A DNA stretch of 64,000 nucleotides from Prevotella fusca JCM 17724 (GTDB lineage Bacteria > Bacteroidota > Bacteroidia > Bacteroidales > Bacteroidaceae): positions 1,054,001 through 1,118,000 of the forward strand of contig NZ_CP012075.1 in NCBI RefSeq assembly GCF_001262015.1, given 5' to 3'. The notes under the pieces are model-generated. The model worked only from the letters and a program-made list of their open reading frames with translations. It made no database searches and had not been told where the DNA came from. The position numbers and the translations under genes were made by a program. Shown one piece after another: positions 170-63,535 of this stretch (position 1 is its first letter; the number at the start of each line of letters is the position of its first letter).

Positions 170-266
170 CAATTGACGCCCTTTTGCATTGCAACTAAGG
201 CTTACTTGCGCTTCAATTGACGCCCTTTTGCATTGCAATTAACGCCCTATTGGAACGCAATCAAGC
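170..266 (+). repeat. CAATTAACGCCCTTTTG array (first cluster)
   Basis: Three ACGCCC blocks and one variant AAGGCTTACTTG block alternate with variable pentamers: cattg, cgctt, cattg and gaacg lie between a TTG and a CAA. The cluster ends in the outward block CAATCAAGCAG. It belongs to the same family as the clusters near 6.1, 11.2, 19.2, 22.9, 25.5, 28.3, 41.2, 49.7, 59.8 and 63.4 kb. Confidence 0.85.
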
Positions 267-711
267 AGATGTTGTTTTCACACGGTAAGTTTAGTAAAGT
301 TTTTTCGCAACCCTGTGGACTGCTTGTAGGTTGTGTTTATGGGGCATTGCAGGGCTACGGGTATGGGCTGTGAGAGAATTGTTGTCGGTCAGAAACTGGC
401 AGGCAGCTGTATGGATGGTGCCTGTCAACCGTGAAACAGGGATGCAGACAGCGTGCATTCCTGTATGGTTGCCGATAGTATTTTTTGCACCTCTTTACTA
501 TATAAATAGGTGTATATTATATAAGGTGGAAATAGCCGGCTGCTGTTGCGATAGCTTTCAGCACCCCTTTTCCATGCTTGCGAAGCTGAATTCATGGTAT
601 ATTATCAGCCGGTTATTCACGATGCAGAAGCGGACAGGAACAAGTGTCGTAACTGTCTGATTATCTTGTGTGCGAGAACAGGACGATATGCTTAAAAAAA
701 AGACTTATTCT

Positions 712-743
712 TTTGGTTTATATTGTATAAACTACTATATTTG
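712..743 (+). promoter_or_regulatory. Bacteroidota sigma promoter of the first susCD pair
   Basis: The -33 box TTTG is at 712-715 and the -7 box TATATTTG at 736-743, separated by exactly 20 bp. This matches the Bacteroidota primary-sigma consensus (TTTG, 19-21 bp, TAnnTTTG). Transcription would start near 750, about 20 nt ahead of the susC start codon. Confidence 0.8.
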
Positions 744-770
744 TGGCAGAAAACCTAAATCAGTAAATAT

Positions 771-3700
771 ATGTCTAATTTTATGAAAGTGGATCAGAAC
801 CGCAGAAAGCATCCGCCGTTTGTAACAGGCAGTCTGGCTTTCTCTTTAGTTGTCGGCTTGATGGCTTTTTCACCGTCATCGGCTTTGGCAAATGTGGACG
901 TGAATGCGATTACAAGTATTCAGCAGCAAAAACAGAGTATCAACGGTGTGGTAAAGGATGCTAATGGCGACCCTGTCATTGGTGCCTCCGTACTGGCTAA
1001 TGGTACTCCTGTGGCAGTGACCGACGTGGACGGTCGCTTCTCTGTTTCAGTCGCTCCGGGTACGGAGTTGAAAATCAGTTATGTTGGTTTTGCCACGCAG
1101 ACCGTCATGGTGCGAAGTGGTGTAAGCAACTACAATGTGACATTGAAAGATGACGATCGTGCTCTCAGTGAGGTCGTCGTTGTCGGTTATGGTACCCAGA
1201 AGAAGGCGAACCTCTCAGGTTCTGTTGCCCAGCTTGATGGAAAGACGCTTGAAAACCGTCCTATATCGAACGTTTCTTCGGGCTTGCAGGGTCTGTTGCC
1301 GGGTATTACGGTGACAGGAGCTGACGGTGCGCCGGGTCTTGATAACGGTACGATTCTTGTGCGTGGTGTGGGAACTTTGAACTCCGCTTCGCCTTATATC
1401 CTTATTGATGGTGTTGAGGCAGGAACGCTGAACTCGCTTGACCCGGAGGATATTGCGAGCATCTCCGTCCTGAAGGATGCTTCCTCGGCAGCCATCTATG
1501 GTTCAAAAGCATCCAACGGTGTGATTCTGGTAACTACAAAACGAGGGCAGAACGGTGCGCCGAAGGTTAGTTATTCAGGTTATTTCGGTATTCAGAATGC
1601 AACAGCCTTGATGGAAAGGATGAATTCAGCCGATGCTGCCTACTATTACAACAAGGCATTGGAACGTAGCGGTAAGGCACCCCGCTTCTCTGACGAGGCT
1701 ATTCAGAAGTTCCGTGACGGCTCTGACCCTTACAACTATCCTAATACCGACTGGTACGACCTTGCATTCAAGACAGCCTGGCAGAACCGCCATAACGTGA
1801 ATGTCACAGGTGGTAACGAGTATGTGAAATACCTTGCTTCTGCCGGCTATCTCAAGCAGAGCAGTATCCTGCCGAATGCCGGTCGTGAGCAGTTCAATGG
1901 TCGTGCAAACCTCGACATGGTGCTGTCAAAGCGCATCACTGCCCATCTTAACCTTTCTTATATCCAGAACAACTACCGTGATGCGAGCAGTGCATACGCC
2001 GGTGGCAGCAGTGACCAGATTATCCGCCAGCTGAACATCATCGCTCCGTGGATTCCTTATAAGAACGAAGACGGCAGCTATGGCACCGTTTCTGACGGTA
2101 ACCCGATGGCTTGGCTTGAGTCAGGCATGACCGTAAACCGCAACAACCGTAACTTTACGGGTATGATTGGCATTGACTATCAGATACTCAAGGATCTGAA
2201 ACTGACGCTCCAGGGAGCCTACGTTGATGCTTCCCAGCGTTACTCTTACTTCCAGAAGTTCATCCAGTACAATTCTAACAAGGCTACTGAACCAAACAAC
2301 TTGACGATTGCCCACTATGACTGGCACCGCACAACCTTCGATGCGTTCATGAACTATGACAAGTCGTTTGCACAGCATAACTTCAAGGCTATGCTCGGAT
2401 GGCATACTGAACGCTTCAAGTATCTGCCGGATTGGATGTACCGCAAGGGCTTCCCTAACAATGACCTGACCGATATGAACGCTGGTGATGCTTCGACACA
2501 GCAGAATGCTGGTCACACTCGTGAGCTGGCAATGGTGTCTTACTTCGGTCGTCTGAACTACGACTATGCAGGTCGTTATCTCTTTGAGGCAAACTTCCGT
2601 TCTGATGCTTCTTCACGCTTTGCCAAGGAACATCGCTGGGGCTTCTTCCCGTCATTCTCAGCTGCATGGCGTATCTCCGAGGAGCCGTTCATGGAGAGTG
2701 CGAAGTCTTGGTTGAACAACCTGAAGGTGCGTGCATCATGGGGTCAGTTGGGTAATCAGGACGCTCTGAGCGATTACTATCCTTGGATGAACACTTATAA
2801 CCTCGATGCGAAGTATCCGTTTGGCGGACAGCTCACACCGGGTTACTATCAGGGTAGCTATCATCTTGAAACAATTTCATGGGAACGTTCAACCACATGG
2901 GGTATCGGTATCGACTTTACGCTCTTCGGCGGACTGACTGGTTCGTTCGATTACTATAACCGCAAGACTACAGGTATCATCATGGACGTGTCAGCTCCGG
3001 CAGAGTTTGCACTCGGTGCATACAAGGATAATATCGGTGCATTGCGCAATCAGGGTGTTGAACTCTCATTGGCTTACGCAAAGCAGTTGAACAAGGACTG
3101 GGCAATCAACGTCGGTGCGAACTTCGCTTACAACAAGAATAAGATTCTCTACTTGGGTGAGGGAACAGAATATATTGAAGATAAGGATGACCGCAACCGC
3201 CGTACAGCTATCGGTAAACAGTACAAGAGCTATTATATGTACAAGGCAACTGGTAAGTTCTTCAACTCACAGCAGGAAGCTGATGACTACACAGCGAAGT
3301 ATGGCAACCCGTTCGGACGTAAGTTCATGGCGGGCGACCTTATCTATGAGGACACCAATGGCGATGGCAAGCTCGATTCAAACGACCGTATCTACACCAA
3401 GCATACGGACATCCCGGCTATTACTTACAGTTTCAACCTCGGTGCTACATGGAAGGACTTTGACCTGTCAATGATATGGCAGGGTGTCGGTTCAGTATCT
3501 CATATCTACAACCGTGAGGTTCTCGGTGAGTTCTCCGGTGATGCAAGCCACCCGTCAACACTGTGGAAAGACTCGTGGACAGACGACAATCACAATGCCA
3601 AGCTGCCTCGCGTATTCGAGACAGGAAACAGCCCAAGTGACATGACCCGTGCCATGTCAACCTTCTGGTTGTGGAATACAGCTTACTTGCGTCTGAAGAC

Positions 3701-3899
3701 TTTGCAGCTTGGTTACTCTCTTCCAAAGAGCGCACTCAAAGCCATCGGTCTTGAGAAGGTACGCATCTACTATGCAGGTGAGAACCTCCTTACCTTCGAC
3801 GCATTGCCATTCAATATTGACCCGGAGGTAACCAGCGAACGTGGATCATCTTATCCATTGCTGCGTTCACATTCTATCGGTATCAATATCACATTCTAA
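771..3899 (+). CDS. SusC/RagA-family TonB-linked outer membrane transporter
   Basis: This 1042-aa protein is an outer-membrane beta-barrel that, with its SusD lid, imports oligosaccharides or peptides using TonB energy. Residues 1-40 hold a basic stretch and a hydrophobic signal segment ending ALA. Residues about 56-125 form a carboxypeptidase-D regulatory-like domain (INGVVKDANGDPVIGASV). The SusC signature EVVVVGYGTQKKANLSGSV near residue 135 opens the plug domain, and the barrel ends in an aromatic F. Near the C-terminal third there is a calcium-loop-like DTNGDGKLDSNDR, common in this family. The susD gene follows 22 bp downstream and a promoter sits at 712-743. The substrate cannot be told from sequence; the GH2 beta-galactosidase nearby on the other strand hints at a galactoside, but that is inference. 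Confidence 0.95.
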   Translation: MSNFMKVDQNRRKHPPFVTGSLAFSLVVGLMAFSPSSALANVDVNAITSIQQQKQSINGVVKDANGDPVIGASVLANGTPVAVTDVDGRFSVSVAPGTELKISYVGFATQTVMVRSGVSNYNVTLKDDDRALSEVVVVGYGTQKKANLSGSVAQLDGKTLENRPISNVSSGLQGLLPGITVTGADGAPGLDNGTILVRGVGTLNSASPYILIDGVEAGTLNSLDPEDIASISVLKDASSAAIYGSKASNGVILVTTKRGQNGAPKVSYSGYFGIQNATALMERMNSADAAYYYNKALERSGKAPRFSDEAIQKFRDGSDPYNYPNTDWYDLAFKTAWQNRHNVNVTGGNEYVKYLASAGYLKQSSILPNAGREQFNGRANLDMVLSKRITAHLNLSYIQNNYRDASSAYAGGSSDQIIRQLNIIAPWIPYKNEDGSYGTVSDGNPMAWLESGMTVNRNNRNFTGMIGIDYQILKDLKLTLQGAYVDASQRYSYFQKFIQYNSNKATEPNNLTIAHYDWHRTTFDAFMNYDKSFAQHNFKAMLGWHTERFKYLPDWMYRKGFPNNDLTDMNAGDASTQQNAGHTRELAMVSYFGRLNYDYAGRYLFEANFRSDASSRFAKEHRWGFFPSFSAAWRISEEPFMESAKSWLNNLKVRASWGQLGNQDALSDYYPWMNTYNLDAKYPFGGQLTPGYYQGSYHLETISWERSTTWGIGIDFTLFGGLTGSFDYYNRKTTGIIMDVSAPAEFALGAYKDNIGALRNQGVELSLAYAKQLNKDWAINVGANFAYNKNKILYLGEGTEYIEDKDDRNRRTAIGKQYKSYYMYKATGKFFNSQQEADDYTAKYGNPFGRKFMAGDLIYEDTNGDGKLDSNDRIYTKHTDIPAITYSFNLGATWKDFDLSMIWQGVGSVSHIYNREVLGEFSGDASHPSTLWKDSWTDDNHNAKLPRVFETGNSPSDMTRAMSTFWLWNTAYLRLKTLQLGYSLPKSALKAIGLEKVRIYYAGENLLTFDALPFNIDPEVTSERGSSYPLLRSHSIGINITF

Positions 3900-3921
3900 C
3901 CGTAATTACCCGATATACATT

Positions 3922-5535
3922 ATGAAAACTATAAGAACATATATATTGGCAGGTGTGGCAGCATTGTCGCTGTCATCCTGTGATGATTTCCTCAACACTG
4001 TTCCGAAGGATGCAATGTCGCCAGCTACAACATGGAAGACAGGCGACGATGCAGCGAAGTTTCTTGTCGGCTGTTATGATGGTTGGGAAGAAGGTGCTGC
4101 CCTGCTTTATTGGGATGCCGGCTCCGACTTTGCCTACAACAACTTCCCATGGGAGGGCTTTACCAACATCGGTAACGGCTCGCTTTCACCCTCATCTCCG
4201 GGTTGGTCGTTCTACGACTTCACCATCATCGGCAGGTGTAACACCTTGCTTGAGAATGTTGACAAGTGTGTTTTCAGCAGCGATGCAGTAAAGAAAGACC
4301 TTATCGCGCAGGCGAAGGCCATCCGTGCTTATAACTATTTCCGCATGGGTTTCCTTTATGGAGGTGTGCCAATCGTCAAGCCTTTCACCAGTGCACAGGA
4401 AGCACGTGTGCCACGTAACACGGAGCAAGAGGTGAAGGACTTGGTATTCAAAGACTTGGATGAGGCTATTGCCGACATCAATACTACGCCTGCAGCACGT
4501 GGACGTATCGCAAAGGGTGCTGCCCTGGCTATGAAGATGCGTGCTGCCCTTTACTGGGGCGACTATCAGAAGGCGAAAGATGCTGCGCAGGCTATCATTG
4601 ACATGGGAAAATACGAGCTTGAGGCTGATTATACCAACCTCTTCAAGTTAGATGGCAGAGACTCAAAGGAGATCATCCTTGCCGTGCAGTATAAGAGCGG
4701 TACCCGCCAGTTGGGTACTATCGGACAGCTGTATAACAACGGTGATGGTGGTTGGTCATCAGTGGTTCCGACGCAGAAGTGTGTCGATAACTATGAGATG
4801 AGTAACGGCATGACCATTGACGAGGCAGGCTCTGGCTACGATGCAACCCATCCTTTCCACGGTCGTGACCCACGCATGGCGATGACCATTCTCTATCCAG
4901 GTTGTACATGGAAAGGCTATGTGTATAACACGCTTGGTGAGGAGCTGAACGGGAAAAAGAATCCTAACTATCCATCAAATGCTGCCAACTCTTCCAAGAC
5001 TGCGCTCACATGGCGTAAGTACTTGGATCCTATGAGCCAGTATTCTGATATATGGGATACCGAGTGCTGCCCGATCGTATTCCGTTATGCCGAAGTACTC
5101 TTGACATGGGCAGAGGCTGAGAATGAGTTGAACGGTCCTTCAGCAAATGTCTATACGATGATTGACAAGGTACGTACCCGCGTTGGTATGCCAGTTGTTG
5201 ATCAGGCAAAGTATAACACAAAGGAGAAACTTCGTGAGCTGATTCATCGTGAGCGTGGCTCTGAGTTTGCTGGTGAGGGTCTTCGCCGTGCTGACATCCT
5301 ACGCTGGAAAACCAATGGTAAGATGGTGGCAGAGATTGTGTTGAATGGTCCATTGAATCGTATCACTGGTACCATAGACAGCACTCTTGTCGATCCAACG
5401 ATGCGTGCCGTAGTCAGTGGAGCAAGCAAGGTAGAGGATCGTACTTTCCAGACTTTCCACAGATATCTGCCTATCCCGCAGTGGAATATCTCGGACAATC
5501 CTAAGCTGGAGCAGAATCCGGGCTACGCTAAGTAG
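3922..5535 (+). CDS. SusD/RagB-family nutrient-binding outer membrane lipoprotein
   Basis: This 537-aa SusD-type lipoprotein acts as the surface lid that binds substrate for the upstream SusC barrel. The start at 3922 is chosen because it gives a lipoprotein signal MKTIRTYILAGVAALSLSSC with the lipidated Cys at residue 20; the longer open frame overlaps susC and lacks a signal. The mature start CDDFLNTVPKDAMSP is typical of SusD. The TPR-like helical body (AIRAYNYFRMGFLYGGVPIV) and the C-terminal RagB region (VLLTWAEAENELNG, RERGSEFAGEGLRRADILRW, YLPIPQ) are both present, so the protein looks complete. A terminator follows at 5582-5612, and no surface glycanase or SusE/F partner is linked. 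Confidence 0.95.
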   Translation: MKTIRTYILAGVAALSLSSCDDFLNTVPKDAMSPATTWKTGDDAAKFLVGCYDGWEEGAALLYWDAGSDFAYNNFPWEGFTNIGNGSLSPSSPGWSFYDFTIIGRCNTLLENVDKCVFSSDAVKKDLIAQAKAIRAYNYFRMGFLYGGVPIVKPFTSAQEARVPRNTEQEVKDLVFKDLDEAIADINTTPAARGRIAKGAALAMKMRAALYWGDYQKAKDAAQAIIDMGKYELEADYTNLFKLDGRDSKEIILAVQYKSGTRQLGTIGQLYNNGDGGWSSVVPTQKCVDNYEMSNGMTIDEAGSGYDATHPFHGRDPRMAMTILYPGCTWKGYVYNTLGEELNGKKNPNYPSNAANSSKTALTWRKYLDPMSQYSDIWDTECCPIVFRYAEVLLTWAEAENELNGPSANVYTMIDKVRTRVGMPVVDQAKYNTKEKLRELIHRERGSEFAGEGLRRADILRWKTNGKMVAEIVLNGPLNRITGTIDSTLVDPTMRAVVSGASKVEDRTFQTFHRYLPIPQWNISDNPKLEQNPGYAK

Positions 5536-5581
5536 TCTGCCTGCCCTGCAAATGGATTTTTTATAGCTTTTTCATCGTTTT

Positions 5582-5825: not shown

Positions 5826-6426
5826 GGTTCTTCCGTTAAATGCGTAGATTGGAAAAGAACAAAGCCTTATACACCTGTATGGTATGATTATCCAAAATCA
5901 GATGGTCTTATAAGGGGGGGACAGGCTACAAGATAAAAATGCAGAAAAGGCAAACAGATACCATGTCTTTCCGTCTTCTTACAAACAATTTATTCCCATG
6001 CTGACCGCTATTTGTAAACTATTTTCGTACAACCCAAAACCAATACATGGTCTCTTGGCTTTGAAAAGACGCCCAATTGACTTGCAATAGACGCCCTTTT
6101 GAGGTCTAACTGACGCCCTTTTGAAGTCCAATTAAGCACCTTTTCTTGCATGACTTTATAACTGACTGATTTACTGTTGGTTGCAAACTTGCTTTTTACA
6201 CGTGTTTTTGTCTTTATCTGCAGGTGTTTTACCCTAAATTATGTCATGATTTTTCAATCTGCTGTCTGCGATTTTCAAAGTATTGACATGAAAAGGTTTT
6301 CTGTGTCGGAGGATGATAACAAAGTAGGTAGCCAAGACTGTCTTGGCTATCTTTTTGTTTAACGCACAACTTCGGTTCTTCCGTTAAAGCTATACGAAAA
6401 GCATCCACGCATTTAACGGATGAACC
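5826..6426 (+). mobile_element. MITE-like element with terminal inverted repeats and 8-bp target duplication
   Basis: The 601-bp element begins with GGTTCTTCCGTTAAATGCGT (5826-5845). It ends with the inverse of GGTTCATCCGTTAAATGCGT (6407-6426), giving 19 of 20 matching terminal bases. It is flanked by perfect 8-bp direct repeats ATTTTTTA (5818-5825 and 6427-6434). An internal copy of the end motif (GGTTCTTCCGTTAAAGC, from 6374) can pair with the right end as a hairpin. The centre (6060-6150) holds a CAATTAACGCCC-type array. No transposase is encoded; one 61-codon frame has only a TTG start and is frameshifted in sister copies. End sequence and 8-bp duplication resemble ISL3-family elements (inference). 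Related copies lie near 25.2, 49.4, 59.7 and 63.1 kb. Confidence 0.8.
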
Positions 6427-10899: not shown

Positions 10900-11215
10900 G
10901 ACGAGCAGACAAGTGAACAAGGTGCTTGGGAGGAAAGGGTAACAGGAGGGCGGAATGGCAGAATAACATATTTCTCTTCTCTTTTATCGTTTTCCCTTTT
11001 ACCTTTCCCTACCAAGCACCCAGCTCTCTTTTCACACCTTTATTTCTTATAAGACAATAGAATTCCATCAAGACCTAAAGCCCGTGGATGGCACAGAGGC
11101 TACGTAACTCTTAATGCAATGTCCGGAACTCTGAAGTAATCAAATTATTTGACAATATCGCAAGGGCTAAAATGCAGATTATGGACTCTGATTTTATATC
11201 AATCATCAATAGCGT

Positions 11216-11304
11216 CGTTATTAACGCCTAATTGCATTGCAACTAACGCCCTTTTGACGTCTAACTAACGCCCTTTTGCAATGCAATTAAGCACCTTTTC
11301 TTGC
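11216..11304 (+). repeat. CAATTAACGCCCTTTTG array (11.2 kb cluster)
   Basis: The order is TTAACGCCTAATTG, pentamer cattg, CAACTAACGCCCTTTTG, acgtc, TAACTAACGCCCTTTTG, caatg, CAATTAAGCACC. The cluster ends in TTTTCTTGCA, the same terminal block seen in the long elements. It lies between convergent or independent units, outside any gene. Confidence 0.85.
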
Positions 11305-11540
11305 AGCACCCTGTAACAGATTGATATGCTGATGGTTATGGGGACGGATAAAACCCACTGTTTTTGATGGAATTTCAGGACTGAAATGAATAGAAACGGC
11401 AAGCAGTCTGAGGACTGTTTTGGTAAAAAATTTTGCGTAAAACGGAGGAGAAAGGAAGAAGGGGATGTGCGGAAAACACGCAGTGGGAGGATGAGCCTGC
11501 CCCTCCACAGGTGCATTAGCCCCCGATGTGCATTATTTAA

Positions 11541-18952: not shown

Positions 18953-19185
18953 TTATAGGCTGGCTATAAAAATATGTTCAGCCTCAAATGACCCGCCTTG
19001 GACTGAAACAGAATAAGGTTAACTCCCTGTCTTTTCGATAAAAAACGAACATCGTTTTGCCGTAGCCGGAACTTTGAAATATATTTACATAAAAGTTTAT
19101 CTTCCTGCCTTGAAACACGTATGAAAACCCTTTTCGTTTCGCACATATAACTAACTGCTGTCCAATACATTACAAAGCTATGCAG

Positions 19186-19266
19186 AAAAAGGTGCTTAAT
19201 TGGACTTCAATTAACGCCCTTTTGGACTTCAATTAACGCCCTATTGAACGTCAATTGGGGCTTAAT
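19186..19266. repeat. CAATTAACGCCCTTTTG array with outward-facing ends (19.2 kb cluster)
   Basis: The order is AGGTGCTTAATTG, gactt, CAATTAACGCCCTTTTG, gactt, CAATTAACGCCCTATTG, aacgt, CAATTGGGGCTTAATT. The left edge is the inverse of the CAATTAAGCACCT end block found in other clusters. Two successive slots carry the same pentamer. Confidence 0.85.
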
Positions 19267-19323
19267 TCGAGTGCTGGAAAGCATAGATTGAAAATGACAA
19301 GAGGAAAAAACAGGACAAAAAAG

Positions 19324-19362
19324 ACTCCCCCGACCCCTCCTTTTCGGAGAGGTCGGGGGAGT
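19324..19362 (-). terminator. Terminator of the AspT/YidE-type transporter
   Basis: The perfect arms ACTCCCCCGACC/GGTCGGGGGAGT have an inner CTCC/GGAG helix. On the leftward strand they are followed by TTTTTT. Confidence 0.9.
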
Positions 19363-19425
19363 TCCAGTATGGAATAACTGAAGTATTCCGAAGGGATTAA
19401 AGAGGATTATATGGTTTTATTACCC

Positions 19426-22713: not shown

Positions 22714-22744
22714 ACCCTTCATCCGCCTGAAATATATTTACAAC

Positions 22745-22788
22745 AAGACCTGCCTTTCCTTGTTCTCGGACAGGGAAAGGCAGGTCTT
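22745..22788 (+). terminator. Strong hairpin terminator with no obvious gene upstream
   Basis: A perfect 15-bp stem AAGACCTGCCTTTCC/GGAAAGGCAGGTCTT is followed by TCTTTATG. It lies about 190 bp beyond the tRNA terminator. Confidence 0.8.
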
Positions 22789-22858
22789 TCTTTATGCTTT
22801 ATAACAATCAGACAACCAATCGGTTACAAGACAGTGCACGAACTGGTGCTTAACAGCG

Positions 22859-22934
22859 TTGCTACTGACGCCTAATTGCAGTCCAATTAACGCCCTTTTG
22901 CATTACAACTAAGCACTGATTGGAACGCTATTGA
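22859..22934 (+). repeat. CAATTAACGCCCTTTTG array (22.9 kb cluster)
   Basis: The order is CTGACGCCTAATTG, cagtc, CAATTAACGCCCTTTTG, catta, CAACTAAGCACTGATTG, gaacg. Confidence 0.8.
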
Positions 22935-23094
22935 TGCTTGCTTCAAAGAACGGATGCATAATCTTATGATGTTTTATTTACAAAGGGAGCGTTCAGAACG
23001 GACGGATACAAACTTTCCCTTGACCCTCCACGTGCTTTATCCACACCTTATTAATATGCAATCTTGTCAACAGCCGCCTTCGTGTACACGTTGA

Positions 23095-25210: not shown

Positions 25211-25753
25211 GGTTCTTCCGTTAAACACATAGATTGTAATTATAAAGGATTACATACCTGCATGGTATGACTATCCGAAAACAGATGGTCCTACAAAGGG
25301 GAACAAGTTACAAGATGTAATGTAGAAAGACAAACAAAATATTTTGCCTATCTATTAACAAGTTTGCCGTCTTCTATAAACAACTCATCCCCATACCCAA
25401 CCTATGTTTGTAAACTATTTTCATGCACCTCAAAACCAATACATGGTCTTTTGGCTTCTAAAAGACGCCCAATTGAGTTGCAATAGACGCCCTTTTGAGA
25501 CCTTACTGACGCCCTTTTGAAGTCCAATTAAGCACCTTTTCTTACACGACCTTATAACCAGTTGATTTACTGTTGGTTGCAAACTTGCTTTTCATGCGTG
25601 TTCTTGCCTTTATTAGTAGATGTTTTATCTGAAATTATGTCATGATTTTTCAACGCCTTATCTGCAAAGCAATATATTATCTTCAACAACTGATAGCAGC
25701 TCATAACACTTTGCCCTCCAAAATCTCTAATGATTTGGGCTTAACGGATGAAC
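25211..25753 (+). mobile_element. Degenerate copy of the MITE-like element
   Basis: The left end GGTTCTTCCGTTAAA is intact and the internal body with its array (25464-25550; slots agttg, agacc and aagtc) is closely similar to 5826-6426. From about 25653 the right part is replaced by unrelated sequence, then a remnant of the right end, CTTAACGGATGAAC, appears at 25740. No clean target duplication is seen. Confidence 0.7.
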
Positions 25754-28115: not shown

Positions 28116-28265
28116 GGGGAAGGACGGGAAAAGCGGGACTGGGCAGCGGAAAGGCTTGAGGAAAGACGGGAGGAGGTTGTTCCGAGGCAGGGCATCGGAA
28201 GCAGGAAACGGATAAGGGAAAGACTGCCATGGATCAGATAATTATAGAACTGCAGAATTATCAGT

Positions 28266-28356
28266 GCCGAATTGCGTTCCAACTAACGCCCTTTAAGCGT
28301 TCAATTAAGGCTTAGTTGCAGGTCAATTAAGGCTTAGTTGCAATGCAATTAAGCAT
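28266..28356 (+). repeat. CAATTAACGCCC-family array (28.3 kb cluster)
   Basis: The slot/block order is TTG cgttc CAACTAACGCCC, then CAATTAAGGCTTAGTTG twice with slots caggt and caatg, ending CAATTAAGCATCTGTT. Most blocks here are the AAGGCTTAGTTG variant instead of ACGCCCTTTTG. Confidence 0.8.
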
Positions 28357-28497
28357 CTGTTATATTCCATGCGTGACTTTATTCTTACAAAAGGGTGTTT
28401 TGTTTCTGACGGGGTCAGTGGAATCCTGCAACATTATGGAGCTGTGAGAATATGCCCGGATTATCAAGGTTTCACACGGAGCGAAGGAGTGAAAAGC

Positions 28498-34468: not shown

Positions 34469-34562
34469 ATTCTTTCTATATTAAGTTACTTCAGTTCCCG
34501 ATTCAGCTTCCGGAGGCGGAAGACAGTGGCAGAACACCGCCGTTCTTTGTCATTCCACGATG

Positions 34563-34628
34563 TTACAAACGGCTTGTAATCATGTTACAAAGGCTTTGTA
34601 ATCCTATTACAAACGGCTTGTAATCATG
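34563..34628. repeat. Three tandem 22-bp palindromic units between susC and susD
   Basis: The units start at 34563, 34585 and 34607. Each contains TTACAAA and TTTGTAA-like arms (TTACAAACGGCTTGTAAT; the middle unit TTACAAAGGCTTTGTAAT). Units 1 and 3 are identical over all 22 bases. Each can form a small hairpin in the susC-susD transcript. Confidence 0.9.
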
Positions 34629-34677
34629 TTGCCTGTGCCGGCAAACCTCCTGCTGAGCATGAACCTCAGTTAAGATA

Positions 34678-40980: not shown

Positions 40981-41148
40981 ACAAAAGATGTCAGGAAACA
41001 GTACGATTAATAAGGATAATGAGCCTATTGTAGTCAACTTAGAGAGTGGGATTGAATTTCCTCACGACTCCAAAAGGCTTCGTTACCCCACGGAATAATT
41101 TTGGAACGACACGTCCTTTTGTAAAAATAAAATCAATCACGGAAAACA

Positions 41149-41230
41149 ACAGGTGCTTAATTGCGCTGCAACTAAGGCTTAATTGGACGCTTAAAGGGCG
41201 TTAATTGGAACGCAATTAAGCACTGGTTAT
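41149..41230. repeat. CAATTAACGCCC-family array with inverted ends (41.2 kb cluster)
   Basis: The left edge CAGGTGCTTAATTGCG and right edge CGCAATTAAGCACTGG are inverted copies of each other with two mismatches. Between them lie AAGGCTTAATTG and the reverse block AAAGGGCGTTAATTG. Confidence 0.8.
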
Positions 41231-41482
41231 TTTACGACTTTACAATCAGCTGATACTCTGCAGATTGCACGTTTGACGCCTCACCCTGCCTTTTCATGAT
41301 TTTAAAAAGGTTTTTCCGTTTTTATGTAAGAATATTTCATCGCTTCACATCAGCTGTCCGGTCTCCTTTTTCATACTTCTCTAAAAGAGGCTTTATGTGT
41401 CTATACAAGGAAAAACAAGGAACAGGGAAGGTGAAGAAAAGCATTGCCGGCGCAGTGCTCTTTCACCTTCAGCACAAAAAAA

Positions 41483-49351: not shown

Positions 49352-49846
49352 GGTTCATCCGTTAAATGCGTGGACACATTTCGTATAGCTTTAACGGAAG
49401 AACTGGAATTATTCATTAAGCAAAACATAGCCAAGAAGGTCTTGGCTGTCTATCCTGTTATCATCCTCCGACGCAGAAACCTTTTCATCTTAATACGTTG
49501 AAAAGCGCAGACAACAGTTTGAAAATTCATGACATAATTCCGGGTAAAACATCTACAGATAAAGGCAAAAATACGCATAAAAAGCAAGTTTGCAACCAAC
49601 AGTAAATCAGCTGGTTATAAAGCAGTGCAAGAAAAGGTGCTTAATTGGACTTCAAAAGGGCGTCAGTTAGACCTCAAAAGGGCGTCTATTGCAAGTCAAT
49701 TGGGCGTCTTTTCAAAGCCAAAAGACCATGTATTGGTTTTGAACTGTATGAAAATAGTTTACAAACGTTGGTCGGCATGGCGTAAACAGAGCTGGAGACA
49801 ATCAAAAAAATCAGCCCGGTTTCTAATGAATGATTGGGGCTAACGG
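49352..49846 (-). mobile_element. Reversed copy of the MITE-like element
   Basis: It starts with an intact end GGTTCATCCGTTAAATGCGT (49352-49371), includes the conserved body and an array at 49628-49722 in reverse (AAAGGGCGTC blocks), and fades near GGGGCTAACGG (49836-49846), a degenerate version of the other end. The far part preserves GTTTACAAACG and CCGACC of the complete copy. No target duplication is seen. Confidence 0.7.
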
Positions 49847-53601: not shown

Positions 53602-53611
53602 AATCCAAGTC

Positions 53612-56157: not shown

Positions 56158-59100
56158 TCAGATTCCAAGACGCAGTGTCAGCGTGAACTGACGTGGAACA
56201 GGCAGTGCCACACCACCGGAATTGAAGAACTCCGGATCCTGACCGTTGAGTTTCTTGTCAGAATAGATCAGGAAGAGATTGGTAGCCTGCAGCTTCAGAC
56301 TCAGCGAACTGAGCGCAAGATGGCGTACCAGCTGCACGGGGAAGTCATACGCCAGGGATATTTCCTTCATACGGATGAAGTCGCCCTTTGCAATGCGTTC
56401 GGTCGAATAGTTGTAAGCATTGTATGCACGGCTCAGATAGCCGTCCTGCTGGATAGAACGGAGGTCAGCAATGGCAGGGATATTTGTGTAAGCCTCATCG
56501 CCCGCCTTTGTCCATCGGTTGCGGAACTCCTTCGGCATGGCTGACATGTCAGAATAGTGTGTGCTGAAGAACGGGTCGAGGCGCACCTTGTTGCCGAAGG
56601 CATAGGTGGTGAAGATGCTCAGGTGCCATCCCTTATAGGAGAAGGTGTTGCCGAACGAGCCGGTAACGGTCGGGTCAGTAGGACCTTCATATACAAGATG
56701 GTCAAGGTCATAGCTCTGGAAGTCCACCCCACTCGTCGTCAGCTTTCCGTCCTGATTGATTACCTGTGGTATGCCGTGCTTGTCGAGTCCCTTGAAGTCC
56801 CATGAGAAAAGGGCACGATAAGGATAGCCCACCATGGTGAAACCCGATCCGCTCACCATTGACATGATGCGTGAACGGCTGTCGAGGTCTGTAACACGGG
56901 TCTTCACATGGGAGAAAATGAAGTCAGTTGTCCACTGGAAGTTCTTCTTCATAATGTTCTTGCTCGAGATAGAGAGTTCCTCACCATGCGACTTCATGCT
57001 GGCAACGTTGGCATACTCGGTGATGGTTCCCTTTGTTCCGTTGGTTGTACGCGGACCGATGAGGTCATAGTTGTTACGTGTGTACCAGTCAAAGACAATG
57101 TTCAGACGGTTGTTCAGGAAGCCGAGGTCGATACCGAGGTTGAACTCATGCTTCTTCTCATAGGTCAGGTCGGGGTTGGCAAAGCGTGAAATCTGCAGTC
57201 CCGACTCCTTGTCAACAGCGAACGGACGCCATATATTCTTGCTTCGGATGATTACCTGCGAGTTGGTGACGGCAGGCTTGTCACCCGTCAGCGAGTAGGA
57301 TGCACGCAGCGTGGCATGTGTCACGGCGTTCTTGAAAGTCTTGCTGAACCACGGTTCTTCATGCGCATTCCATACACCCGAGATGTTCCATGTAGGCAGC
57401 CAGCGTGCCGAACGTGACTTGCCCAGACGGTTACTGCCCTCGTAGCGGGTTGTGAAGTTGGCCGCATAGCGTCCCTTCCATGAATAGTTGGCTGTACCGA
57501 AGAACGACACATCACGGTTATAACTGTTGTAGAGGTCGTAATACATGTTGTTATCCTCCAGCGCATGCTTGAAATAATGGTAGTCATAGTTGGCAAGATA
57601 ACCCATGCCGTACTGCATACCTATACCCTCGAAATAGCTCTGTGTGCGGATGGTGTTATTGATTTCCATACCACCATAGAGGTTGAGGATATGCTTCTCA
57701 TTGAAGACGTCATTGTAACTTGCCGTCGCACGGAAGTCCCAGCTGTTCATGCGGTACTTGGTTTCATTATAGAAACCACCCTTTGGCAGCACCGAGAACT
57801 TCAGCGAGTTAGGCTGGTCGGGGTCAAGGTAGAGCCATGGGTTGGCATTGCGGATTGTGGCATCGTCCATGGCACGGTAAGCCATTGCCATGTTGGACTG
57901 CTCCCTGATCTGTGAAGCCTGCGATGTGATGGAATACTTATAAGCTCCGAGGACAGCAAGCTGCACCTTGCTGACAGGCTTGTACTTCAGCTCAGCCTGC
58001 ATCTTCAGGTCGAGGACATCGAAGTCGATGAAGTTGTTTGCCAGCTCATTGTGTATATTGAACGGTGCATAGTTGCGTACGTAGAACGTATTGGGATCCA
58101 ATGCACGTGATGAGTTGATGGCATAGGAGTAAGGATTAATATCAAAGTTACGGTTTACAGCTCCCGACACGACATCCACCTCCTGGTTCACCGATCCCGG
58201 TGCACGCTGCTTGCGGTAGGAAGTATTGCCGATGAGGTTCAGCGTCACCTTCTTGCTGATGTTATAGTTGGCATTGATGGAATAGGTCATGCGGCGCACC
58301 TTGCTCTGCTCGCTCCATCCCGGGTCGTCCATGAAGGAGAAGGAGGTGTAGTACTGCGCCTTGTCAGTTCCTGAAGACATTGAAATAGAGTGGTTCATTG
58401 ATACGGAATTCCTGAACAGCTCCTTAAACCAGTCCGTATTCCGCATCTCAGCCTCCCGGAGATAATCGTTGATGGCTTCCTCCGTATGTGCAATACCGAA
58501 ACGCCCGTTGGTGGAATCGTAGGTATTGAGGAGGTTGTACATCTTACCGTAGATACCGCTCGTGGCTGCACGGAGCGTACGTGAGAAGGAGAACAGTCCG
58601 TCGGCAGCCATCTCCTTGTAGATACCCATCTGCTCCTGGGAGTTCATGATGTTGAACTGGGAGTAGCTCGGACGCAGGCGCATGGTGTATTCGCCGGTAT
58701 AGCTGATGCGGTTGCTGCCCGCCTTACCCTTCTTTGTCGTTACGACAATCACACCACCCATGGCACGTGCTCCATAGATGGAAGTTGCCGAACCGTCTTT
58801 CAAAATCTGGAAACTCTCGATGTCGTCAGCATTCAGTCCTGCAATGGCTGACGAAATCAGCGTGGCAGCATCACCTGACGAGAGGTTGTCAGCATTGACC
58901 TCGGTAACGTCTTCCATGATGACACCATCGACAACCCACAGCGGCTTTGACGAGCCGTAGATTGACGTGGCACCACGCACACGGATCTTCGGGGCCGTAC
59001 CGAACGTACCCGACACATTCTGGACACTCACACCGGCAGCACGTCCTTCGAGCGAACGGCTCACGTCTGCCACACCGTCGAGCTTCGCCTTCGTGGCATC

Positions 59101-59466
59101 AATCTTCGTGGCAGCACCCGAGAAGAGGCGTTTGTCCTGCTGGGTCATACCTGTCACGACAACCTCGGTGAGCTGGTGGTTGTCATTGGCAAGCCCCACC
59201 CTCATGCCATCCTTGGCAGCAAGGGTCTGCGTGACCATACCGATGTAACTGACTACGACTTTCTTTCCCGCAGGGACAACGAGTGAGAAGTTTCCATCGA
59301 TGTCGGTGACAGTACCCGTCGAAGTACCTTGTACCATGACTGACGCACCGATGATGGGTTCACCATCGTCCTGAGAAAATACAGTACCATTGATTTTTGC
59401 CTGACCGAACGCTGTACCTACTGACAGGACGATCCCTAACAAAAAAAGAACAAATCTTCTCTCCAT
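56158..59466 (-). CDS. SusC/RagA-family transporter, second metallohydrolase operon
   Basis: This 1102-aa TonB-linked barrel starts at 59466 (MERRFVLFLLGIVLSVGTAF signal); an in-frame extension upstream lacks signal character. The regulatory domain INGTVFSQDDGEPIIGASVM, ELTEVVVTGMTQQDKRLFSGA and the plug KIRVRGATSIYGSSKPLWVV match the SusC at 34678-37986 almost residue for residue through about residue 290. The barrel then diverges. Equal length and shared order of downstream genes show that the operons are paralogues. The promoter is at 59658-59689. Confidence 0.95.
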   Translation of the reverse strand: MERRFVLFLLGIVLSVGTAFGQAKINGTVFSQDDGEPIIGASVMVQGTSTGTVTDIDGNFSLVVPAGKKVVVSYIGMVTQTLAAKDGMRVGLANDNHQLTEVVVTGMTQQDKRLFSGAATKIDATKAKLDGVADVSRSLEGRAAGVSVQNVSGTFGTAPKIRVRGATSIYGSSKPLWVVDGVIMEDVTEVNADNLSSGDAATLISSAIAGLNADDIESFQILKDGSATSIYGARAMGGVIVVTTKKGKAGSNRISYTGEYTMRLRPSYSQFNIMNSQEQMGIYKEMAADGLFSFSRTLRAATSGIYGKMYNLLNTYDSTNGRFGIAHTEEAINDYLREAEMRNTDWFKELFRNSVSMNHSISMSSGTDKAQYYTSFSFMDDPGWSEQSKVRRMTYSINANYNISKKVTLNLIGNTSYRKQRAPGSVNQEVDVVSGAVNRNFDINPYSYAINSSRALDPNTFYVRNYAPFNIHNELANNFIDFDVLDLKMQAELKYKPVSKVQLAVLGAYKYSITSQASQIREQSNMAMAYRAMDDATIRNANPWLYLDPDQPNSLKFSVLPKGGFYNETKYRMNSWDFRATASYNDVFNEKHILNLYGGMEINNTIRTQSYFEGIGMQYGMGYLANYDYHYFKHALEDNNMYYDLYNSYNRDVSFFGTANYSWKGRYAANFTTRYEGSNRLGKSRSARWLPTWNISGVWNAHEEPWFSKTFKNAVTHATLRASYSLTGDKPAVTNSQVIIRSKNIWRPFAVDKESGLQISRFANPDLTYEKKHEFNLGIDLGFLNNRLNIVFDWYTRNNYDLIGPRTTNGTKGTITEYANVASMKSHGEELSISSKNIMKKNFQWTTDFIFSHVKTRVTDLDSRSRIMSMVSGSGFTMVGYPYRALFSWDFKGLDKHGIPQVINQDGKLTTSGVDFQSYDLDHLVYEGPTDPTVTGSFGNTFSYKGWHLSIFTTYAFGNKVRLDPFFSTHYSDMSAMPKEFRNRWTKAGDEAYTNIPAIADLRSIQQDGYLSRAYNAYNYSTERIAKGDFIRMKEISLAYDFPVQLVRHLALSSLSLKLQATNLFLIYSDKKLNGQDPEFFNSGGVALPVPRQFTLTLRLGI

Positions 59467-59657
59467 AGATTCTTTAAAATTAACTGAATTCTTACTGTAG
59501 CATAATTCAAACGACTTCACCTTTCCTGTACTGACAGGAAAGCAAGACTAACGGAACAGTGGCTAAGATAATAGTCTGTGGGGCTACACCTTATTATATA
59601 TCGGCATTGTAATATTGATTGTTTAGGTTCCTTTATATTTATCACTGCCGCTGATTG

Positions 59658-59689
59658 CAAAAATAAATAATATTTGGATAAAAAGCAAG
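59658..59689 (-). promoter_or_regulatory. Promoter of the second metallohydrolase Sus operon
   Basis: Leftward -33 CTTG (59686-59689), 20-bp spacer, and -7 TATTTTTG (59658-59665). The leader is about 185 nt, close to that of the paralogous operon. Confidence 0.7.
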
Positions 59690-59734
59690 CAATAAGTATA
59701 AAAAAATAAGCGGTAGTTATTTTTTCTTAGGACA

Positions 59735-60193
59735 ACTTGTTCCCACGTCATCGGCACTTGTAAACTATTTTCATACAGTTCAAAACCAATACATGGTCTT
59801 TTGGCTTCCAAAAGACGCCCAATTGGCTTGCAATAGATGCCCTTTTGAGGTCTAACTGACGCCCTTTTGAAGTCCAATTAGGCACCTTTTCTTGCACTAC
59901 CTTATAACCGGTTGATTTACTGTTAGTTGTGAACTTGCTTTTTACACGTGTTTTTGTCTTTATCTGTAGGTATTTTACCCGGAATTATGTCATGATTTTT
60001 CAAACTGTTGTCTGCGCTTTTCAACGTATTAAGATGAAAAGGTTTTGTGTCGGAGGATGACAATAAAGTAGACAGCCAAAACCTTCTTGGCTATGTTTTT
60101 GCTTACAGATAACTTCGGTTCTTCCGTTAAAGCTATCCCGAAAGTCACCCACGCATTTAACCCAAACGGTCATATGGGCTTAACGGAAGAACC
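59735..60193 (+). mobile_element. Copy of the MITE-like element lacking a clear left end
   Basis: From TTGTAAACTATTTTCATAC onward it closely follows the complete copy, with the array at 59808-59895 and a right end with GGTTCTTCCGTTAAAG and its inverse CTTAACGGAAGAACC (60179-60193) forming a hairpin. The left 150 bp are diverged beyond confident recognition. Confidence 0.7.
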
Positions 60194-60308
60194 CTGTAAA
60201 ACATTGGTTGAAAAGGGGAAGGGAGGCTCATTATCATGACACATTATATAACAAGACACGCTAAAGACCACCTCATGCGGAAGTGTTTACCTGACTGTAC
60301 TGACCTTC

Positions 60309-62789
60309 TTATATGAACAGCATGCCCACCTGGAACACAACGGCACTGACCACCCACGCCAATACCGTGGTGTAGCCGGCGGCAAAGAGTGCCCATCCCC
60401 AGCTGCCGGTCTCGCCCTTGATAGCCGCTATCGTGGCTATACAGGGGAAGTAAAGCAGGACAAAAAGGAGGAACGAGAAGGCTGTCAGCGTGGCTACCGG
60501 CTCTGCCTCTTCGTAGCTGATGCCGTGGAGACTGGCAACGTCCTTCGTTATCAGCTTGTGCAGCTTGGAGTATTTTCCCGTCTCGCTGCTGTAGCCGTTA
60601 TCGTCGGAGAAGCTGTCGTCATTGGAGTAGAGCACGCCCATCGTCGATGCCACGATCTCCTTTGCAGCCACGCCGGTCAACAGACCGACATCCAGCTTCC
60701 AGTCAAATCCCTGCGGACGGAACACCGGCTCAACCGTCTTTCCTATCCGCCCGATAAAGCTCTGCTCCTGTCGTGCCTGCTTGTCCATGTCCGGATCATC
60801 GGGAAGAGGGAAATAGCCCAGCGCCCACACGATGATGGAGGCAACGAGGATGATGCCTCCCATCTTCCTGAGATACTGCTTGCCCTTCTCCCACGTATGC
60901 CGTCCGATGGCTTTCCATGTCGGGAATCGGTAAGGCGGCAGCTCCATCACGAACGGCGTGTCCTCACCCTTGACGACGAAGGCGGAGAAGAGGCGGCTCA
61001 TCACCACCGCCATCAGCACACCTATTACATATAAGGAGAGCATGGCTAACGAGCGGTACTTCAGTGCGAAGAACGAGCCTGTAATCATGACGTAAATGGG
61101 CAGACGTGCCGAACAGCTCATCAGCGGCAGGATGAGCATGGTTATCAGGCGGCTCCTACGGCTCTCAATCGTGCGTGTAGCCATCACTGCAGGCACGTTG
61201 CACCCGAAGCCCATGATGAGCGGGATGAATGATTTTCCGTGCAGACCCATCTTGTGCATCAGACGGTCCATGATGAAGGCGGCACGCGACATGTAGCCGC
61301 TGTCCTCCATATAGGAGATGAAGAAGTAGAGAATCAGGATCTGCGGCAGGAAGACGATGACTGCTCCCACACCACCGATGACGCCGTCGACGAGCATATC
61401 CTTCACCGGTCCGGCAGGCATGTACGTTGAAATGAAATCGCCCAGCCAGCCCACACCAGCCTCAATCCAGTCCATCGGATACTGTCCGATGACGAATGTT
61501 GCGGTGAACATCACCAGCAGGATGAGGAAGAAGATAGGGAAACCAAGGTATTTGTTCGTAAGAATCCTGTCGATAAGATGTGTCGTCTGGTAGGTGTCTT
61601 TCTTGTCACCTGTCGAGAATTCGGCCTCTTCCAGCGCACCGTGTATGAAGCCGTACTTGGCATCCATGATAGCCGTTTCGCTGTCGTTGCCCGTCTCTTC
61701 CTTCACACGTGCGGCAGCCTTGTCACGGTGCCGGAATATCTCAGCCGACTCGTCCAGCGGTCTGACGAGCTGTTCCACATCCTTATCGTGCTCCAGCAGC
61801 TTGATGGCGAGGTAGCGGGTGGAATAGCGGCGGCACAGTTCAGGGTACTTCTTCAGGTGCTCCTGCATCTCCCTGATGCCGTACTCAATTTCATGTCCGT
61901 GGTTGATATGTATATGACGGAACTTCGGCGACTCGTCCTCCTTGCCCTCATAGACGGCGATGACCTGACGGAAAAGCTCCTGCACGCCACGCCCGTTAGT
62001 GAATACCGTCGGCACCATCGGCGCACCGAAGAGCTGCGACAGCTGCTGATAGTCCACGTGGTCGCCACGCTGTTCGGTCTCGTCGAACATGTTAAGCGCA
62101 CAGACCATACGGATGTGCATGTCGATGAGCTGTGTGGTGAGGTAGAGGTTGCGCTCCAGATTGGAGGAGTCGATGACATTGATGACGACATCGGGAGTTT
62201 CATCGACCAACTGCTTGCGCACATAGAGTTCCTCCGGACTGTAGGCTGAGAGGCTGTAGGTGCCGGGGAGGTCGACGAGGTTGAACTCGTAGCCCTCGTA
62301 TTCAGCACGTCCCACCTTCGCATCCACCGTCACACCCGAGTAGTTCCCCACCCTTTCGTGTGCCCCTGAAGCAAAGTTGAAGAGCGAAGTCTTCCCGCAA
62401 TTCGGGTTTCCCACGAGTGCCACGTTGATGCTGCGGCGTTTGCGTCGGGCAGCATCCGACAGCTCTTCGGGCGTAAGTTCCTTGTCCGTGCTGTCATCCT
62501 GTGCAGCGACAACCGCATCGTTGCGGTCAGCACCGTCGCCACCGCTCTCCAATGCACGTGCCTCCTCTTCCGACAACACCTCAATCTGGTCAGCCTCACT
62601 GTGTCGCAGACTGACCTCATATCCCATAATCTTATATTTCACCGGGTCCTGCAAGGGTGCGTTGAGCAACACCTCAACGGTCTTTCCCTTGATGAATCCC
62701 ATCTCAATAATTCGTTTCCGAAAGCCACCGTGTCCCAAAACCTTCACGATGACGCCGGTCTCGCCGGTCTTTAACTCTGATAGTTTCAT
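60309..62789 (-). CDS. FeoA-FeoB fusion, ferrous iron transporter
   Basis: This 826-aa protein imports Fe(II) across the inner membrane. Residues 1-75 are a FeoA SH3-like domain (LKTGETGVIVKVLGHGGFRK). A charged linker leads to a G domain with G1 GNPNCGKTSLFNF (about 126-138), G2 Thr in YSGVTVD, G3 DLPGTYS and G4 NMFDE. The membrane part has gating motifs such as FIPLIMGFGCNVPAVMATRT and a later GLLTGVAAKEIVASTMGVLY, each with the expected conserved Cys or Gly residues. Fusion of FeoA to FeoB is usual in Bacteroidota. Two CATAATTATG palindromes lie 40-75 bp upstream and may bind an iron regulator (inference). Confidence 0.95.
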   Translation of the reverse strand: MKLSELKTGETGVIVKVLGHGGFRKRIIEMGFIKGKTVEVLLNAPLQDPVKYKIMGYEVSLRHSEADQIEVLSEEEARALESGGDGADRNDAVVAAQDDSTDKELTPEELSDAARRKRRSINVALVGNPNCGKTSLFNFASGAHERVGNYSGVTVDAKVGRAEYEGYEFNLVDLPGTYSLSAYSPEELYVRKQLVDETPDVVINVIDSSNLERNLYLTTQLIDMHIRMVCALNMFDETEQRGDHVDYQQLSQLFGAPMVPTVFTNGRGVQELFRQVIAVYEGKEDESPKFRHIHINHGHEIEYGIREMQEHLKKYPELCRRYSTRYLAIKLLEHDKDVEQLVRPLDESAEIFRHRDKAAARVKEETGNDSETAIMDAKYGFIHGALEEAEFSTGDKKDTYQTTHLIDRILTNKYLGFPIFFLILLVMFTATFVIGQYPMDWIEAGVGWLGDFISTYMPAGPVKDMLVDGVIGGVGAVIVFLPQILILYFFISYMEDSGYMSRAAFIMDRLMHKMGLHGKSFIPLIMGFGCNVPAVMATRTIESRRSRLITMLILPLMSCSARLPIYVMITGSFFALKYRSLAMLSLYVIGVLMAVVMSRLFSAFVVKGEDTPFVMELPPYRFPTWKAIGRHTWEKGKQYLRKMGGIILVASIIVWALGYFPLPDDPDMDKQARQEQSFIGRIGKTVEPVFRPQGFDWKLDVGLLTGVAAKEIVASTMGVLYSNDDSFSDDNGYSSETGKYSKLHKLITKDVASLHGISYEEAEPVATLTAFSFLLFVLLYFPCIATIAAIKGETGSWGWALFAAGYTTVLAWVVSAVVFQVGMLFI

Positions 62790-62828
62790 AAAAACCTACT
62801 CGCTCCTCACTACTCGTATTTCAAAACT

Positions 62829-62863
62829 CATAATTATGATTATTCTGTCAATGCATAATTATG
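62829..62863. promoter_or_regulatory. Paired CATAATTATG palindromes ahead of feoAB
   Basis: Two identical 14-bp direct repeats CATAATTATGATTA start at 62829 and 62854, each containing a perfect 10-bp palindrome. They lie 40-75 bp before the FeoAB start codon and downstream of the only recognisable -7 box. Confidence 0.55.
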
Positions 62864-62979
62864 ATTACTTCCAATTCACCGTTCAGAACTTGCCATTCAA
62901 TATTCATGAACCTGTTTCCTTATTGACTGGTCAAGCAACTGGTCCACTTGTCAACCCGTAAATCCGTCAACTTAACAAA

Positions 62980-62987
62980 CAAAGGTA
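62980..62987 (-). promoter_or_regulatory. Probable -7 box of feoAB
   Basis: Leftward TACCTTTG lies about 190 bp before the start codon. No matching -33 box. Confidence 0.45.
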
Positions 62988-63124
62988 GTTAAAAAAAACA
63001 GAATAGAACGCTTTTACCGCTTAAATACCTAATAATGGGTATAACTCAAGTCCACATCAGATGCGTTTGCGCATCATCATACAGAAGTGGTTTCAAAAGC
63101 GACAGTTTACTTTTAAGTTTTAAT

Positions 63125-63535
63125 TTTGGTTCTTCCAAAGATGCTTTTCGCATAGCTTTAGCGGAAGAAGCGGAGTTGTTTATTAAATAAAAACATAGCC
63201 AAGACGGTCTTGGCTGTCTACTTTATCATCATCCTCCGATGCAGAAAACCTTTCCATTTTAATACTTTGAAAAGCGCAGACAAAAGTTTGAAAAATCATG
63301 ACATAATTTCGGGTAAAACACCTGCAGATAAAGGCAAAAACACGTGTAAAAAGCTGGTTTGCAACCAGCAGCAAATCAGTCAGTTACAAGGTAGTGCAAG
63401 AAAAGGTGCTTAATTGGACTCCAAAAGGGCGTCAGTAAGGCCTCAAAAGGGCATCTATTGCAAGCCAATTGGGCGTCTTTTGGAAGCCAATAGACCATGT
63501 GTTGGTTTTGAACTGCATGAAAATAGTTTACAAAC
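63125..63535 (-). mobile_element. Reversed, degraded copy of the MITE-like element
   Basis: The end is decayed (GGTTCTTCCAAAG at 63125, where GGTTCTTCCGTTAAA is expected), while the body and array (63401-63485, AAAGGGCGTC blocks) are well preserved. The element stops after GTTTACAAACG near 63535. Confidence 0.7.

Follow-up and report, generated by a model that had tools for sequence, protein, structure and literature searches.

REP/BIME and REPIN repeats form hundreds of palindromic intergenic copies. Iteron plasmid origins of the RK2 type carry 17-bp direct repeats with 5-bp spacers and a 22-bp period, and CRISPR arrays combine long unique spacers with cas genes. In the genus Prevotella, PINSR is a 188-bp intergenic non-coding repeat of which two P. 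intermedia strains carry 177 and 184 copies (Naito et al., PMC4755523). According to that account, PINSR also occurs in P. nigrescens, is restricted to one clade by polymerase chain reaction, has no terminal inverted repeat (TIR) and no known function, and keeps about three quarters of its positions in common between the two strains. The BrickBuilt miniature inverted-repeat transposable element (MITE) of Porphyromonas gingivalis is described (PMC4596501) as intergenic, with an internal 23-nt tandem repeat, a leader, and a tail. The DNA analysed here, called the window, is a 64,000-nt stretch of Prevotella fusca JCM 17724 (C2:1054001-1118000 of genome G000, 3.26 Mb in two contigs, C1 and C2). 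It holds dispersed clusters of 17-bp blocks and 5-bp slots with a 22-bp period. These clusters are the middle part of a fixed-length intergenic non-coding element of about 247 bp and not open-ended arrays.

Structure and copy number of the element

Within the window, Tandem Repeats Finder gave 22-bp arrays at seven sites of the element (near 170, 6067, 19199, 28301, 49652, 59801, and 63449). Block CAATTAACGCCCTTTTG had 18 window matches at three mismatches or fewer, against 0.14 expected in shuffles, and CAATTAAGCACCT had nine at one mismatch or fewer, against 0.13 expected. A whole-element profile recovered 11 copies in the window. Across the genome, the block-slot pattern gave 154 matches at three mismatches or fewer and none in a reversed control; a second pattern gave 358 at one mismatch or fewer, with two in the control. 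The block and slot pattern of the original prediction was therefore real. Its placement of the clusters outside genes was also confirmed: in an unbiased sample of 864 kb of contiguous stretches, window included, 0 of 67 copies overlapped a predicted gene by more than about 30 bp, with gene positions taken from our own hexamer gene caller.

Arrays from the unbiased sample and from targeted loci were parsed in the 22-bp register, which yielded 170. The typical array was a fixed 105 bp, with five 17-bp blocks and four 5-bp slots. Four slots were present in 133 of the 170 parsed copies, so that the slot number is fixed and the array is not open-ended. Inside the long leader family, 52 of 55 copies had four slots, two had three, and one had one. 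Outside it, the 115 copies comprised 81 with four slots, 21 with three, seven with two, four with one, and two with five.

Flank comparison of copies with at least three slots showed that homology extends past the array. The element runs from a left end through a conserved 46-bp stretch and five blocks around four slots to a right end. The left end TTGAAATATCTTTACATAA preceded the array at a distance of 112 bp in 87 of the 123 four-slot copies with a definable orientation, and of 111–114 bp in 113 of them; 10 further four-slot copies were not orientable. The right end, of the form GGAAATATTTTTACAAAA, followed about 12 bp after the array. An alignment of 117 of the 133 four-slot copies, which also served for the RNA-fold analysis, had 247 columns, and at least 43 of 56 full copies were 241–248 bp long. 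The left end motif occurred 53 times in elements and eight times elsewhere in the sample (reversed control, 8). The right end motif was weaker, with 17 occurrences in elements, 14 elsewhere, and 15 in the control. Neither a target duplication nor an inverted repeat was found at the ends of the 247-bp core. Subfamilies had longer shared flanks of their own. A wider sample of 1.264 Mb (600 kb of C1 and 664 kb of C2), used for copy counts and for the period scan below, contained 104 copies, which extrapolates to about 250 in the whole genome. The copies in the window are listed in Table 1.

Table 1. Element copies in the window and their parts, in window positions.
Feature	Position	Strand	Basis
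Partial element, array region (model 111-219)	168..276	-	nhmmer profile, 66 bits
MITE of 601 bp carrying element 6014-6256	5826..6426	.	ends like GGTTCTTCCGTTAAATGCGT, 8-bp duplication ATTTTTTA; sample coordinate converted to window
Full element, long-leader subfamily B	6014..6256	-	profile, 177 bits
Partial element (model 39-227)	11186..11374	-	profile, 117 bits
Left end motif TTGAAATATATTTACATAA of element at 19075; element-specific motif	19074..19092	+	sequence
Full element, subfamily A, MITE flanks not recognised	19075..19319	+	profile, 163 bits
Array of 105 bp, five 17-bp blocks and four slots; parser recognised three slots	19186..19290	+	array start C2:1073186
Full element	22728..22965	+	profile, 118 bits
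Full element, subfamily B	25409..25652	-	profile, 167 bits
Partial element (model 87-247)	28232..28392	+	profile, 110 bits
Element of 223 bp (model 2-247)	41117..41339	-	profile, 122 bits
Full element, subfamily B	49520..49764	+	profile, 177 bits
Full element, subfamily B	59761..60002	-	profile, 170 bits
Full element, subfamily B	63288..63532	+	profile, 176 bits

A second repeat with a hairpin, of the CCCCAACCCCTCTCCGAGTGGAGAGGGG type, follows several subfamily A copies, as at window 19320-19400.

Slot variation, block constraint, and the proposed docking strip

The slots were tied to position and subfamily in 81 oriented copies. Distinct strings at slots 1 to 4 numbered 17, 25, 29, and 24 among 66 G000 copies. 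GACTT was the commonest string at slot 1 both in this set (30/66) and in 31 non-orthologous copies from two relatives, G196 and G182 (17/31). CAAGC filled slot 3 in 20 of the 31 copies and in eight of the 66, and the commonest strings at slots 2 to 4 differed between the two sets. The impression of hypervariable slots arose from pooling four positions, two orientations, and several subfamilies. Information content in the G000 set was 1.37 bits per column at the block edges, 1.04 in block cores, 0.93 in slots, and 0.36 in the middle, with 1.32 at the left end; the G196/G182 set gave 1.39, 1.53, 1.30, and 0.50 for the first four parts. The middle, about 47 bp between left end and array, was weakly conserved in sequence and kept its length.

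Substitutions were counted in 20 comparisons, not independent of each other, over 10 orthologous loci of close relatives. Loci were used only where junctions were consistent, as several rows scored as present had misfitting gaps and many lacked a flank. Block cores were substituted at 3.2% (35/1100) against about 9% in the middle and pre-array parts (166/1860; p = 3e-10). Slots (34/400) exceeded block cores (p = 4e-5) and did not differ from the middle and pre-array parts (p = 0.85). The left end changed at 35/380 and the right end at 21/357. Since slots were substituted like the middle and pre-array parts, the slot behaves as an ordinary, weakly constrained spacer. This is the outcome that the original prediction had itself named as refuting it, slot variation no greater than neutral drift. 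When each of the 10 loci was counted once, slots (12/200) and block cores (21/550) gave p = 0.23, with 171/1420 in non-array parts, a count inflated by one locus pair that was one base off in length and not realigned. The element had four gapped columns, all at the right end; the 150-bp flanks had 302, partly from misaligned insertions. Gain and loss of units, which the original prediction had proposed to look for, was rare: length was nearly constant, with one exact 22-bp unit difference.

Slot diversity might be made actively, with slots as recombinase coupling sequences or products of slippage. Many distinct strings per slot position and the single case of two genomes differing by exactly one 22-bp unit would agree with this, but the slots are position-specific and partly common to species (GACTT, CAAGC), and their substitution equals that of unconstrained parts. 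Active slot diversification is largely refuted, and we regard it as extremely improbable.

We consider it rather probable that the clusters belong to one intergenic interspersed element of about 247 bp whose array is a docking strip for a putative protein. Four mirror-symmetric sites, one per 22 bp or two helical turns, would form the strip on one face of the DNA. A dimeric DNA-binding protein would take this strip and assemble on it cooperatively, with the 5-bp slot as the central spacer in every site. Copies would spread partly as MITE passengers and partly by another route, and would then persist. Block sequence, 22-bp spacing, site number, and distance to the ends are the constrained features, and these would match the needs of cooperative DNA-protein assembly. 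The original prediction had offered a protein-binding array or a mobile unit. The dispersed intergenic family, the binding-array geometry, and the mobility of MITE-borne copies stand; the specially diversified slots do not.

Several observations weigh against a docking strip. The TTG/CAA block edges, conserved among copies, changed between orthologues (43/600) about as much as unconstrained parts, and the 12 bp after the array were the most changed part (48/240). Blocks were less symmetric in the G196 group, and the 22-bp register parser skips copies with indels, which makes length look more constant than it is. No binding protein was found in following one candidate, a Rep_3-like protein. This protein was 84–99% identical in ten genomes though block sequence differs among some of them, and it had no match in three genomes that hold diverged arrays. 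Position was not tied to gene starts or ends, so there is no visible regulatory target. The 67 sampled copies comprised 37 between tandem, 12 between divergent, and 18 between convergent genes, against 39.9, 14.6, and 12.4 expected (p = 0.20).

Mobility, orientation, and RNA folding

Subfamilies B and D lie inside MITEs ending in GGTTCTTCCGTTAAATGCGT; the other subfamilies have no TIR. The MITE ends, which have an ISL3-like look, were first seen in an alignment of 12 of 30 loci and were repeated on other data, with 77 matches against seven for the reversed control. Ends paired within 4 kb in 22 cases, and 19 of these pairs spanned 490–614 bp, each with exactly one element. Among the 19, four had 8-bp duplications, two had 7-bp duplications (one a run of T), two had 3–4-bp duplications, and 11 had none.

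Ten loci were reliable among three mutually close relatives, whose syntenic blocks were mostly 90–97% identical, and the element was at the same loci; no locus with both flanks matched scored empty in this set. G000 was also compared with these relatives, the genes being about 80% identical. At 12 loci with a matched flanking gene, two of them matched on both flanks (one with and one without the element) and with no chance level computed, the G000 element was present within 900 bp at five and absent at seven.

The copies could instead be purely selfish remnants. The 247-bp core would then be the interior of an old MITE with ends GGTTCTTCC and an 8-bp duplication, nothing would bind the array, and solitary copies would have lost their TIR flanks. 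The TIRs of subfamilies B and D, the 7–8-bp duplications in six of 19 pairs, the longer flanks particular to subfamilies, and the seven of 12 loci without the element are consistent with this. Pure decay, however, predicts neither the conservation of blocks next to a middle that varies in sequence but holds its length nor the slower change in block cores, and the solitary copies stop at the same two end motifs. We judge an exclusively selfish origin to be possible but unlikely.

At C1:390130, a distant Prevotellaceae genome was near-identical rightwards from the array edge and not leftwards, with one exact 22-bp unit fewer. Between L181 near 5000 and L096 near 10100, from distantly related genomes, identity by eye jumps to above 90% at the array edge, which suggests horizontal transfer, or a recombination event that broke at the array.

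A promoter of fixed orientation is held to be unlikely, though the pooled counts leave it some probability. Orientation along tandem genes was 27/37 in G000 (p = 0.008) and 35/51 when pooled with relatives (p = 0.011), but 8/14 in the relatives themselves. Transcription terminators were considered and set aside: in tandem pairs, the element lay at a median of 271 bp past the end of the upstream gene and 373 bp short of the start of the downstream one.

A structured RNA, either rod-shaped or made of successive hairpins whose loops are the slots, was also evaluated. Single arrays fold into long hairpins, and local hairpin 4 paired better than permuted sequences (z 5.5), in G000 only. RNAalifold, by contrast, gave no structure for 66 copies outside the long family, and the fold it predicted for 51 long-family copies lacked covariation (z -1.2 and 1.1). 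Pairing in hairpin 2 and in the pre-array stem was worse than in permuted sequences, no helix exceeded z 1.7 in 31 copies of two relatives, and no window element reached an Rfam gathering score. An RNA function of this kind appears highly unlikely. Complementarity of slots between mirror positions was rejected, as no pair was above z 1.6.

Related arrays, distribution in Prevotella, and known systems

The arrays could be iteron-like sites of a replication initiator, kept as decoy or titration sites or left as fossil iteron plasmid origins. The Rep_3 gene of C2 has iterons GATAAGTAACCTTTTGG followed by five variable bases and preceded by TGTAATCAATTGATTTACA, which resembles by eye the TGTAATCAATTAGTTACA of the element. 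The element profile on this origin nevertheless gave a best E of 0.013 in a register that did not align array with array, and the iteron sequence was unlike the element blocks. The core Rep_3 gene had no consistent upstream array in 11 genomes. An adjacent initiator gene was generally missing: 1.264 Mb contained 104 elements, whereas Rep_3 matched at two places in the entire genome, a count that covers the Rep_3 family, other initiator families not having been searched. We therefore find an initiator-site origin very doubtful. Rep_3 proteins as the binder were likewise unsupported by profile comparison, by core Rep_3 conservation, or by upstream regions. One window element had no match in a plasmid collection.

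Three features were observed near Rep_3 genes. On C1, a full element (L303:214-459) stands 726 bp upstream of a Rep_3-like gene (L303:1186-2355), whose protein is the one with 84–99% identity in ten other Prevotella genomes. The C2 gene (L302:1438-2685) is accompanied by four iterons of 22 bp (17 + 5 bp) at L302:1127-1214, with the look of a plasmid-type origin. Three relatives (L309, L310, and L311) have CACCAATGGTGTTG repeats upstream of their Rep_3-like gene, and a similar motif, CACCAATGGTG, makes up 22-bp arrays at other G000 sites.

The 22-bp period was not confined to the element. In each 88-bp segment of the 1.264 Mb, periods from 12 to 40 were scored and the best one taken. This gave 163 short-period arrays, 113 of them at 22 and five or fewer at any other period. 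The 113 comprised 69 element arrays, 25 of a family X with TTTTCATGAAAA sites, and 19 of other kinds. Three relatives, sampled over 800 kb, had 31 of 81 arrays at period 22 and seven at the next period. The element was denser on C2 (74 in 664 kb against 30 in 600 kb of C1, p = 2e-4) and family X on C1 (22 in 600 kb against seven in 664 kb of C2, p = 0.002), an opposite lean with a Fisher p of 8e-6. In two samples, element density per Mb was 50 and 50 on C1 and 101 and 135 on C2, so that the bias appeared in both. For family X it was 35 and 40 on C1 and 4 and 25 on C2, with the bias mainly in one. Several intergenic array families without evident sequence similarity, with near-palindromic sites 22 bp apart and about four sites per array (counted for the element, by eye for the others), might serve as platforms on which architectural or segregation proteins specific to a replicon dock, with sequence turning over and geometry kept. 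We put this forward as an improbable extension of the docking strip.

Family X has intergenic TTTTCATGAAAA sites every 22 bp and ends GAATTATTTTCATG...CATGAAAATAATTC. Examples within L081-L100 (C1:80001-480000) are at C1:94301, 155230, and 344276, and none was found in 800 kb of three relatives, one replicon each. Tandem Repeats Finder also located a 22-bp array of another family, with TTACAAACGGCTTGTAA sites, at window 34560-34630; a similar array lies near C2:981598.

A first pattern search found one or two matches in five of 118 other genomes, not above the reversed control. Differences in block sequence from one species to another account for the low number. A sequence-only profile model matched 62 of 398 genomes at E ≤ 1e-5, the weak ones possibly by chance, and 11 below 1e-20, G000 included; this survey scored at most five candidates per genome, so it counts genomes and not copies, and its E-values are rough. 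Full-length copies were found in G196, G182, and G397, and full-length profile matches also in G174, G026, and G360. DNA matches spanning the element were found in P. denticola and P. jejuni. Loci from weaker-matching genomes showed the 22-bp period in a comparable layout built of different blocks, namely CAAAAGTGCCACTTTTG in G400, CAAAAGAGCCTCTTTTG in G273, and TAAAAGCGGCTCTTTTG in G134, an agreement that is not independent, as the loci were picked by a model that has the 22-bp period. The single G302 locus showed the layout poorly.

In G134, all four copies were 189 bp long, and by eye the left end motif was reversed and closer to the array. The G134 profile also matched one element of G196 (E 1e-7) and one of G003 (E 1e-9). 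One G134 copy aligned over its full 189 bases to P. nigrescens with 83% identity, and the 568-kb record concerned had 11 such places. Judged from these alignments, the 189-bp G134-type element is very probably PINSR, and the window element very probably this species' form of a Prevotella superfamily to which PINSR belongs. The view that the design had no named family fails if PINSR (PMC4755523) is a homologue, as the 189-bp G134 copies and the P. nigrescens match indicate. No paper on PINSR was found beyond that one, and no description of a 22-bp architecture in Prevotella was found in a literature search whose coverage lacked most subscription journals.

A repeat described in one clade would thus become a wider Prevotella element, whose geometry is kept while its sequence may vary. 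If it is bound by a protein, Prevotella with two chromosomes would possess a binding system that spans the genome with a few hundred sites. Block differences between species would then be a natural record of a protein and hundreds of sites changing together.

Among known systems, the element resembles REP/BIME and REPIN in its palindromic intergenic copies and differs by its fixed length of about 247 bp and its 4 x 22-bp register. It shares 17 + 5 bp and the 22-bp period with iteron origins, but has hundreds of chromosomal copies, nearly all without an adjacent Rep gene. CRISPR was rejected because the 5-bp slots recur by position, unlike long unique spacers; cas genes were not searched. BrickBuilt (PMC4596501) is likewise an intergenic MITE with an internal tandem repeat of near-equal period (23 nt against 22 bp). 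It has 1 to 22.8 repeat units where the element has four fixed sites, and IS5-type GAGACC ends where GGTTCTTCC stands here, most copies here being without TIR. Membership in BrickBuilt was therefore rejected, given the 22-bp period, four slots in 133 of 170 copies, and other ends. PINSR is like the window element in being intergenic (67/67 here), of high copy number (104 in 1.264 Mb here), and without TIR at the core ends. The window element differs in its length of about 247 bp, its block sequence, and the position of subfamilies B and D within TIR-bearing MITEs. The consulted parts of PMC4755523 make no mention of a 22-bp internal period. The confinement of PINSR to the P. intermedia/nigrescens clade does not apply to the element, which has matches in P. 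denticola, P. jejuni, and six genomes. PINSR is the only named relative found for the element, and the 4 x 22-bp architecture, the spread past one clade, and the further 22-bp arrays in the same genome are new.

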